A stretch of 33,563 nucleotides of DNA from a virus: the IMG/VR virus record IMGVR_UViG_3300034024_000093, positions 1 through 33,563 of that record; one strand, written 5' to 3'. Below, one piece after another: positions 1 through 1,689 of the stretch (position 1 is the stretch's first letter; every line of letters begins with the position of its first letter). The notes beneath the pieces are model-generated. The model saw only the letters and a list, made by a program, of their open reading frames with translations. It searched no databases and was not told the DNA's origin. The position numbers and the translations under genes are program-made.

Positions 1-1047
1 TTAAATACTATTAGATTGAAACCATTGTTCTCTAATAGCATTTGCGATATTAGCGGTCATTAATGGCGGTACGCTCATACCACATACATATCGTACAGGT
101 GAACCACAAAAATCAAAATCAGAAGGAAAACTACTTACTCTGATATACTCTGTATTATTTAAATGGCGGGCCTCATCATAATAGACTGTTGCCCCACTAC
201 TCGTTAGTGTTGGCATTACAACATTATCATACACTATAACCGTATTATAAAAAGCTTTAGGCTCATTTAAGTTTCGGTATTTGCTATCTGCAAACTTTAA
301 ACTTTGGTCACCATATTCAATATATGGCCAACGTTTGGTGATAGAATCCATCAATGTTCTATGATTATTAGAACCTCTATCCACTACGTCTCCGAAATAA
401 ATCGGTTTTTCGTTGAATTTAAGCGTTAAATTTGGCAAGCCTATATCTTTACGCCTTGCGACAAAGAAAATCCTTTCACGGCTTTGTGGTACCCCCATAG
501 TAGCACTATTTAATTGAAATATCTGAACGTCATAGCCGATCGCATTTAATCTTTCATGTATTTTAATAGTATATGCTTTTGCCCTACCTGCAACAATTCC
601 ACAAACGTTTTCTAATATCGCAACTTTTGGGCGTAATTTCTCGATTGTATCACAATAAACAAAAACTAAGTCGTCTAGTGTTTGTTTTTTTTGGCCCTCC
701 CTAAAAACTTTCTCTTTGCCCCAATCAAGCTCACGGTTACCACTTATTGAGAATGTAGAGCATGGAGGCGATCCATCTAAAATATCTAAGTTGTAAAGTT
801 CGCTTGGTAAATCAGTACGTTGGTTAAAATCACGGATGTCTTCTAAATAAAAATATTTTGGGTTGTGATTGGTTTTATAGATGGTTGCCATTCTTTTATC
901 AATTTCTACACCTCCTAAATGTACAAAACCTGCCAATTTGTAACCCATTGTGGAACCGCCACCACAGACGAATGTGCCAAAAACCTTTAATCCGTTTTCT
1001 TTGGGATAATCATTCGTTTTTGTCCAATCGTATTTTAATCTTTTCAT
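1..1047 (-). CDS. DNA (cytosine-5) methyltransferase
   Basis: Transfers a methyl group from S-adenosylmethionine to C5 of cytosine in DNA. Visible family motifs, in order: motif I around residues 25-41 (TFVCGGGSTMGYKLAGF, a variant of the usual FxGxGG), motif IV DGSPPCSTFS at 91-100 with catalytic Cys96, motif VI ENV at 146-148, motif VIII QSRER at 188-192, and an FPxxF-like element near the C-terminus in the target-recognition part. At 348 aa it is normal length for a single-domain enzyme and looks intact. No restriction endonuclease gene is visible beside it, so it is best read as a solitary phage methylase protecting phage DNA from host restriction. It lies at the end of the prophage opposite the repressor, where Mu carries mom. 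The specificity cannot be read from sequence. Confidence 0.93.
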   Translation of the reverse strand: MKRLKYDWTKTNDYPKENGLKVFGTFVCGGGSTMGYKLAGFVHLGGVEIDKRMATIYKTNHNPKYFYLEDIRDFNQRTDLPSELYNLDILDGSPPCSTFSISGNRELDWGKEKVFREGQKKQTLDDLVFVYCDTIEKLRPKVAILENVCGIVAGRAKAYTIKIHERLNAIGYDVQIFQLNSATMGVPQSRERIFFVARRKDIGLPNLTLKFNEKPIYFGDVVDRGSNNHRTLMDSITKRWPYIEYGDQSLKFADSKYRNLNEPKAFYNTVIVYDNVVMPTLTSSGATVYYDEARHLNNTEYIRVSSFPSDFDFCGSPVRYVCGMSVPPLMTANIANAIREQWFQSNSI

Positions 1048-1177
1048 AATCTTTTTTTATAGTGTTAATATCTAATTCCTTATTAATAAACTCCCGCTGT
1101 TTTTTCCTCATTGTAATTAAATAATTTTGTTAAAGTCTTTCTTATGCCACACGATGCTTGTGGTTTCTATTCCATTT

Positions 1178-1206
1178 TTTGATTGATGATTATTTACTAT
1201 ATTTGC
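1178..1206 (+). promoter_or_regulatory. Bacteroidota-type promoter for the small RNA
   Basis: A perfect -7 box TATATTTGC (TAnnTTTGC) lies at 1198-1206, with TTTG at 1178-1181 as a possible -33 element 16 bp upstream. The predicted start is about 4-7 nt downstream, at about 1210, exactly where the long hairpin begins. No protein gene lies on the plus strand downstream, so the promoter appears dedicated to the RNA. The -33 spacing is slightly short for the consensus. Confidence 0.6.
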
Positions 1207-1209
1207 AGT

Positions 1210-1309
1210 CCGAGAGTATTTAGAAAATAGCAAAGCCACAGCATAGAAGACTTATGTCCTCCAGCGCTGTGGCTTTGTAGCTATTTAAAAATACCCTCGG
1301 AAGTTTTTT
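1210..1309 (+). ncRNA. putative structured small RNA with its own promoter and terminator-like end
   Basis: A long inverted repeat pairs 1210-1242 with 1266-1300. The outer segment CCGAG (1210-1214) pairs with CTCGG (1296-1300), then GTATTT pairs with AAATAC, AAATAGC (1225-1231) with GCTATTT (1280-1286), and AAAGCCACAGC (1232-1242) with GCTGTGGCTTT (1266-1276), leaving a 3-nt bulge and a few mismatches. The loop (1243-1265) contains a smaller GAC/GTC hairpin and the sequence GTCCTCCA. Three bases after the stem is a run of six T (1304-1309), as expected for intrinsic termination on the plus strand; the minus strand has no T-run. It sits in the 300-bp gap between the methylase and the membrane protein gene and has no ORF. 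Its function is unknown. It could alternatively be only an outsized terminator or a DNA site, but the promoter box placed exactly at the 5' edge favours an RNA. Confidence 0.6.
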
Positions 1310-1347
1310 AAATGTTGGAGGACTTTTTTAAATATGCCTCCTAAAGA

Positions 1348-1689
1348 TTATTTTCGTGCGTTAATTTCTATATTGGCTATCCAGAGCGAAATTTTTTGTA
1401 TTCCGAACCCTAGCCCTAATGCATAATACATAGTTACCTTAGTGCCGGCATATTCAACAGAAAAACGCAATGCCAAAAGTAATAGTAGTAAGCCTAGTAC
1501 AACTTCTCTAAGGTTATCTATAATTAGAAACCAAAAGTTGAATTTATAGGGAGTTGAACTACTTGTTTTATCTCGTTTTTGAGCTTTTAAAAGCAACACT
1601 ACGACCACACCCAATAAGGCAAAAACCAAGGAGGCACAATAAGTAGGAATGTCGTTTGTTCCTAACAGTAAATCGATAAATTTATTCAT
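1348..1689 (-). CDS. small inner-membrane protein of the late region (holin candidate)
   Basis: A 113-aa protein with about three hydrophobic stretches: roughly residues 17-35 (SLVFALLGVVVVLLL), 52-75 (FWFLIIDNLREVVLGLLLLL) and 85-106. Short charged loops follow the first (KAQKRDK). I recognise no family. It follows the tail-fibre-like genes with a 6-bp gap and is the last late gene before the small-RNA region. Phage membrane proteins of this size with 2-3 segments are often holins, and no other clear multi-pass holin candidate is visible in the lysis cassette at 12818-14066, so a holin role is possible but only inferred. The stop codon is followed by GGAGG/CCTCC complementary segments (1317-1341) without a T-run. 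Confidence 0.7.
   Translation of the reverse strand: MNKFIDLLLGTNDIPTYCASLVFALLGVVVVLLLKAQKRDKTSSSTPYKFNFWFLIIDNLREVVLGLLLLLLALRFSVEYAGTKVTMYYALGLGFGIQKISLWIANIEINARK

Follow-up and report, generated by a model that had tools for sequence, protein, structure and literature searches.

A Mu-like phage carries, between a divergent C5-cytosine DNA methylase gene and its last late gene, what the comparative evidence makes very probably a plus-strand non-coding RNA gene of a new family, and this RNA probably controls when the neighbouring modification genes switch on. The family appears to be undescribed. A search of Rfam 15 gave no match for the window (the whole 33,563-base stretch of phage DNA analyzed here) or for 14 related loci, the best weak match being mir-7131 at 23.9 bits against a cut-off of 74, and we found no paper on this RNA in the open-licence literature. 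The original prediction of an undescribed RNA is thus supported as far as these two sources show. A palindromic candidate from Bacteroidetes that lies close to phage genes, HMP2_4078 (PMC8040213), could be related.

The Mu-like nature of the phage is indicated by a Mu-type portal protein (PF06074, E 1e-66), a capsid protein and an AAA ATPase; the match to a Mu/rve transposase was weak. Within the gap at 1050-1347 there is no open reading frame of at least 60 amino acids. A box of the form TAnnTTTGC, with the sequence TATATTTGC and perfect for Bacteroidota, occupies 1198-1206, and a long hairpin begins 2 nt 3' of the box and spans 1209-1301. The RNA fold of 1205-1312 has a predicted energy of -43.1 kcal/mol compared to -19.2 +/- 3.3 kcal/mol for shuffled sequences (z -7.3; 0 of 200 shuffles), a signal far beyond chance. 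The empty gap, the box, the hairpin and the T-run at 1304-1309 were all part of the original prediction and all proved to be present. A general descriptor consisting of box, hairpin, loop-complementary tail and T-run gave one match when both strands of the window were scanned, exactly at the element. No tandem or direct repeats were found at the element, which is a single unit in the window. The component parts are listed in Table 1.

Table 1. Features of the RNA element and its flanking genes in the window.
Feature	Position	Strand	Basis or remarks
Upstream promoter region TTTTTTGATTGATGATTATTTAC	1175-1197	+	Possible -33 element, weak
Bacteroidota -7 promoter box TAnnTTTGY (TATATTTGC)	1198-1206	+	Sequence; relatives
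RNA gene	1209-1329	+	Covariance model match 1206-1335, 129 bits; ends inferred from promoter position and T-run
Basal stem, 5' arm	1209-1221	+	Partner 1289-1301; 11 modelled pairs, two-sided changes in all (relatives)
Upper stem, 5' arm CAAAGCCACAGC	1231-1242	+	Partner 1266-1277; two-sided changes in 12 of 13 modelled pairs
Loop	1246-1265	+	GAAGAC 1246-1251, 4-nt turn, tail-complementary GTCCTCCAGC 1256-1265
Upper stem, 3' arm	1266-1277	+	Partner 1231-1242
Basal stem, 3' arm	1289-1301	+	Partner 1209-1221
Linker	1302-1313	+	Includes T-run 1304-1309; sequence variable; median 12 nt (114 elements)
Tail GTTGGAGGAC	1314-1323	+	Complementary to loop 1256-1265
T-run right after tail, probable 3' end	1324-1329	+	Sequence; common to aligned members
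Third segment CCTCC	1337-1341	+	Again complementary to tail
C5-cytosine DNA methylase, divergent neighbour	1-1047	-	PF00145 E 1.7e-42; phrog_116 E 1.7e-64
Small membrane-type protein, last late gene before RNA	1348-1689	-	No family match; relatives in L003, L004, L005

In relatives of the element, the T-run at 1304-1309 corresponds to the variable linker, and the conserved 3' part consists of the tail and the T-run at 1324-1329. The RNA is on this account more likely to be 115-120 nt in length than the approximately 100 nt originally predicted; the free-standing RNA stands, and its end moves about 20 nt further to include the loop-complementary tail. The loop GTCCTCCAGC and the tail GTTGGAGGAC of the window are complementary with one G-U pair, and GAAGAC in the loop resembles an imperfect copy of the tail (GGAGGAC), with a weak competing mini-hairpin predicted with 1256-1261. 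A third loop-type segment (CCUCC-like) was noted 3' of the T-run for the window (1337-1341) and 113 elements, frequently within a small hairpin loop; a tail-complement score of at least 7.5 was obtained for 57.5% of elements compared to 8.5% of shuffled sequences. On the other side of the RNA, a TTGATTGATGATT-like stretch in the upstream promoter region is common to many Flavobacterium copies and missing from others, and a TTGATTGATGATTGAT-like stretch located 5' of the promoter in many copies (Flavobacterium loci L011, L023 and L094; 1179-1192 in the window) is a possible operator or -33 variant.

More than 50 distinct phage or prophage members share the promoter, hairpin, loop, tail and T-run, their hosts including Flavobacterium, Tenacibaculum, Chryseobacterium, Myroides, Paenimyroides, Polaribacter, Aquimarina and others. 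These members came from scans for the loop or for the loop plus tail, and from one scan of bacterial genomes. Note that the later scans selected on the loop motif, TAnnTTT and tail, so that conservation of these features there is no evidence; the spacing, the stems, the base after the box and the covariation of loop and tail do count as evidence. The -7 box was present in 55 of 55 aligned members at a near-fixed distance to the stem, with the nn positions free and G followed by C or T; TAnnTTT had been used in selecting the members, and the spacing and final pyrimidine had not. An exact scan for the upper stem only (AAAGCCACAGC...GCTGTGGCTTT), which made no demand on loop or tail, matched 11 viral contigs. 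Ten of these also have the promoter box, where the sequence extends far enough, and the same ten have a loop of the form GAAGAC-N4-5-GTCCTCCAAC (longer in one) and, 3' of the hairpin, GTTGGAGG(A/G)C and then a T-run.

Of 299 Flavobacterium species genomes searched independently with a pattern, 18 (6%) contain the element, sometimes with two to four copies per genome. Two genomes (G1063 and G942) contain four and two RNA copies, some of them identical, representing multiple related prophages per strain. A copy in Flavobacterium sp. TAB 87 (L246) has a replaced 5' basal arm and abuts host-like genes, and is probably a prophage end or remnant. Transposable phages carry the RNA, a transposase relative being found in 13 of 20 records, and so do phages that have a tyrosine integrase and lack such a transposase (L023 and L033, with weaker evidence for L130). 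A search of plasmids for the element found none. A rigid sequence pattern applied phylum-wide matched none of 395 genomes, the pattern being too strict to be informative on absence, and a weak BLAST match to Cellulophaga phages (E 0.2) was not used since it covers the promoter region only.

The element also occurs in the hankyphages, which are common in the gut and belong to Bacteroides. Hankyphage p00 (BK010646.1) contains an unannotated copy at approximately 40,555-40,693 on the minus strand, preceding a Mor-like small gene, a thymidylate synthase gene and an N6 methylase gene. Between the RNA and the thymidylate synthase gene, phages of Bacteroidales have a small Mor-like HTH gene (2680-2919 of L380, which is p00; also L326-L355). 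A 2025 hankyphage study with public stranded RNA-seq of Bacteroides thetaiotaomicron jmh43 (ArrayExpress E-MTAB-14274) makes no mention of such an RNA in those parts of its text covered by our search (PMC12135933).

We used a covariance model built from 10 members, with the window among the seeds, to align 53 members; RNAalifold applied to the first large alignments had recovered the loop-tail helix only, with the stems misaligned. Compensatory base changes in the stem had been proposed as a check on the original prediction, and two-sided changes with pairing kept were found for 23 of the 24 stem pairs, with 93.6% of cells pairing across the 53 members. The stem thus does not vary without compensation, nor is the hairpin merely part of an unrelated repeat. 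Covariation was 0.476, where shuffling gave 0.123 and sliding the partners 0.03-0.05; fitting the alignment to the structure somewhat favours covariation, but the slid controls are still tenfold lower. The 10-pair loop-tail helix of the same 53 members contained 14 G-U pairs, no A-C pairs and 3 mismatches. Among 114 distinct elements there are approximately 50 loop/tail sequence pairs, the two halves changing together, with 44 G-U compared to 3 A-C pairs when both were allowed equally. Because the loop-tail wobbles favour G-U over A-C, the plus strand is taken to be the RNA; promoter, T-run and loop-tail wobble all point to this strand. The promoter spacing and the comparative evidence together support an autonomous structured phage RNA that would begin at the hairpin. 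What the alignments say of this RNA is that it would pair its loop with its tail, the sequence being free and the complementarity kept.

The turnover of loop and tail also bears upon possible targets. Pairs found outside the window include CCCCCGG/CCGGGGG, GCCCAAGG/CCUUGGGC and AGCCCCGUCC/GGAUGGGGCU. That loop and tail differ between phages while complementarity is kept argues against a fixed seed for host mRNA, which was among the targets originally proposed. An anti-Shine-Dalgarno or other fixed-seed role for the loop (CCUCC) was rejected on the same kind of evidence, the relatives swapping loop and tail together (GCCCCCGG/CCGGGGGC, CCCUUGG/UCAAGGG). A second reason for the rejection is that the window contains no other good match to the tail. 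The geometry of the element places a further constraint on the pairing. Stem base and tail are separated by a linker of 12 nt (8-14) whose length does not increase with that of the stem. Even when stretched, this linker falls short of the folded hairpin in almost every element, by a margin smaller than the raw median of 1.33 suggests, since the base-pair count includes the apical mini-hairpin. With the linker apparently too short for the pairing to form within one intact hairpin, tail-loop pairing probably needs either an open basal stem or a second RNA copy. The imperfect copy of the tail in the loop, taken with the linker geometry, looks like a two-state switch.

Conserved neighbours had been suggested as a second check, and were found. 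The first recognizable divergent neighbour is a DNA/nucleotide-modification gene in 55 of 60 RNA-first loci: D12 methylase of type a (16) or type b (5), thymidylate-synthase-like (16), ATPase/acetyltransferase with or without formyltransferase (13), C5 methylase (2), Mom (2) and N4/N6 methylase (1). Clear DNA methylases and Mom account for 26 of these 55, and the sets with thymidylate-synthase-like and ATPase genes are presumed modification genes. The other five loci comprise three contig ends, one false positive of the descriptor (L137) and one true exception, L038. This locus and L241, the same prophage in Flavobacterium tiangeerense, have an intact-looking RNA and no recognizable modification gene, possibly due to decay of the cassette. 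In the independent Flavobacterium set, the same kind of neighbour was found in 15 of 16 scored loci, the sixteenth being a contig end. Searches that began with the proteins gave a similar result, the RNA lying beside 17 of 17 Mom relatives with at least 59% identity and beside 4 of 4 relatives of the window's C5 methylase (Dcm) with at least 72% identity; it is almost never present beside distant Mom or C5 homologues in other contexts. Unrelated families of modification gene are thus exchanged behind the same RNA. Late phage genes were among the targets originally proposed, but the constant companion is the divergent modification gene and not the late membrane protein gene, which points to control of that cassette.

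The association extends to elements of different sequence. We assembled 102 protein-first loci (80 thymidylate-synthase-like and 22 ATPase), and the covariance model located the RNA directly upstream and divergent in 52 of them; many of the remainder have the same plan in different letters. A sequence-free descriptor (box, 9-pair stem base, tail pairing with loop, and T-run, without specified loop or tail letters) matched 77 of the 102 loci and none of 102 dinucleotide shuffles; in 3.5 Mb of other sequence its matches were limited to a few unrelated places. Two of the cassettes have a composition of their own. An ATPase, a GNAT acetyltransferase-like protein and a formyltransferase-like protein are conserved to the left of the RNA in L076, L078, L093, L259, L261 and L269, and this set may constitute a DNA-modification pathway that has yet to be described. 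Behind the RNA, a thymidylate-synthase-like gene and a D12 methylase gene often stand as a pair, in either order (L247, L249, L253, L242 and others), which suggests that hypermodified pyrimidines are combined with methylated adenine.

The first modification gene mostly has its ATG 9-41 nt from the -7 box of the RNA. For the ATPase set this distance is 141-162 nt, with a reading frame of approximately 45 residues apparently located between (read by eye), and in the window the methylase ATG is 150 nt beyond the box. Only 1 of 55 members has a promoter box of this type on the minus strand, and the last late gene usually ends within about 10-30 nt of the T-run. On this geometry, the modification gene would most simply be transcribed as an extension of the late operon that crosses the RNA gene. 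Given such read-through, the RNA would be antisense to the leader of the modification gene.

The reading we favour, to which we give a little less than even confidence, is that of a cis-antisense RNA keeping the modification genes silent until late infection. From the RNA gene, strand, structure, linkage and orientation established by comparison we infer transcription, read-through, repression and timing as follows. A host-type promoter would produce the RNA from the base of the hairpin to an end probably within the T-run after the tail, the whole RNA lying within the leader that the late-operon transcript would cross on its way to the modification gene. In the quiet prophage the RNA would hold the modification gene down, by a leader duplex or by head-on transcription, and as late transcription rises the RNA would be overrun and DNA modification would come on late. 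Pairing of tail with loop beside the T-run, which probably joins two copies of the RNA or requires the basal stem to open, may set the 3' end or the activity of the RNA. Drifting sequence combined with constant architecture is what is expected when the target is the opposite strand. Three points count against the antisense reading: tail-loop pairing would mask the loop, which should stay accessible in an antisense RNA that acts loop-first; the thymidylate-synthase-like and ATPase sets are only presumed modification genes; and L038/L241 is a true exception. As an unlikely extension, we also consider a self-recognition code specific to each phage, in which the loop of one RNA copy would recognize the tail of another. 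The RNA would thereby gauge its own abundance, and through it the number of phage genomes or the level of late transcription, and would release the modification cassette only after replication. If true, phage DNA modification would be timed by an RNA whose code is private to each phage lineage.

The strict linkage to genes that protect phage DNA could alternatively reflect a trans-acting phage RNA, for instance one that counters a host defence or binds a protein of host or phage, which moves together with the modification genes as a counter-defence island. Conservation of plus-strand structure and promoter, and presence in transposable and integrase phages alike, would agree with such a role. 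We consider it doubtful, since almost no sequence motif survives across the superfamily besides the promoter and the C-rich loop/G-rich tail, and since a trans RNA would have no need of the rigid position and orientation to the modification gene. Less probable than this is that the transcript is a by-product, the strong promoter and unusual terminator serving as a head-on block or insulator between late operon and modification gene. Sequence conservation would not be required for a block, and the promoter position, T-run and convergent arrangement suit one; a simple promoter and ordinary terminator would suffice for the purpose, however, and the loop-tail complementarity and covarying two-part stem would be left unexplained.

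A potential concern with the strand assignment is that the complementary leader also folds strongly, raising the possibility that the opposite strand is functional as a leader hairpin in the modification-gene mRNA, inhibiting translation as in Mu mom and possibly opened by a phage protein. Simple folds are indeed richer in minus-strand G-U (151 compared to 47, with a second count giving 164 A-C to 50 G-U). Most of this excess sits in the conserved loop and a single column of the stem, for which reason a minus-strand leader was rejected as the main product; the stems proper are balanced, with 26 G-U and 23 A-C pairs. The loop-tail helix favours the plus strand, on which the promoter and T-run are also found, and the hairpin does not lie over the start codon of the modification gene, the ATG being outside it in the window and elsewhere. 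We rate a functional leader hairpin as slightly less probable again than the head-on block, and a translation-inhibition leader of the Mu mom type was rejected since the start codon is not sequestered. It is very improbable that the hairpin is recognized in DNA as an exchange site at which modification cassettes are swapped: non-homologous genes do change behind a constant element, but the phage has a single copy without a partner site or linked recombinase, and the G-U bias, promoter and T-run indicate RNA. Two known types of element were also rejected, an integron attC site, which needs sites flanking cassettes where the window has a single copy, and a ToxI-like type III toxin-antitoxin RNA, since there are no tandem repeats and the neighbour is a methylase, not an endoribonuclease toxin.

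As a regulatory idea, the element is most likely a variant of cis-antisense control. IS10 RNA-OUT and plasmid CopA/RNAI are hairpin antisense RNAs with their own promoters, encoded opposite the leaders they control and drifting freely in sequence, and the promoter-bearing hairpin described here likewise drifts opposite a candidate leader. Those RNAs are not known to have a loop-complementary tail before the T-run; such a tail is present here, where antisense action is putative. P4 CI RNA and P1 C4 RNA are small stable immunity RNAs with a loop complementary to a segment of their own transcript, tied to termination. The element resembles them as a small phage RNA with this complementarity, but they control downstream genes on the same strand and the genes here are divergent. 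The complementary segments of phi29 prohead RNA covary and can pair between copies, as may be the case here, although the element has a link to modification genes and none to packaging genes. We know of no such RNA in Mu. Mu Com protein opens a translation-inhibition structure in mom mRNA (PMC6483171). The element shares with com-mom the setting of a last-gene DNA modification in a transposable phage, Mom homologues occurring here too, and as mom is kept off by RNA structure until late, the element is a proposed RNA counterpart of that layered control; in place of an mRNA leader structure and Com it would use a separate plus-strand RNA with its own promoter. In the EcoRI restriction-modification system, the 88-nt antisense Rna0, made from the reverse promoter PREV0, arises inside the restriction gene and acts against the methylase promoter (PMC3874152). 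The phage element, as proposed here, would likewise be a short antisense RNA from a reverse promoter that controls a modification gene. Unlike the bacterial Rna0, the phage element is a stand-alone structured RNA with many unrelated modification genes and a loop-tail code.

With these data, the transposable and integrase phages of Bacteroidota, hankyphages of gut Bacteroides among them, gain an RNA family that appears to be undescribed, located at the one site where these phages swap DNA-protection genes. The RNA can be used as a search tag for new DNA-modification cassettes, such as the ATPase/acetyltransferase/formyltransferase set. To our knowledge, the means by which phages delay potentially harmful DNA modification until late is well understood only for Mu mom. 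If the antisense reading is true, the family would represent an RNA solution to this problem that is used across unrelated modification chemistries.
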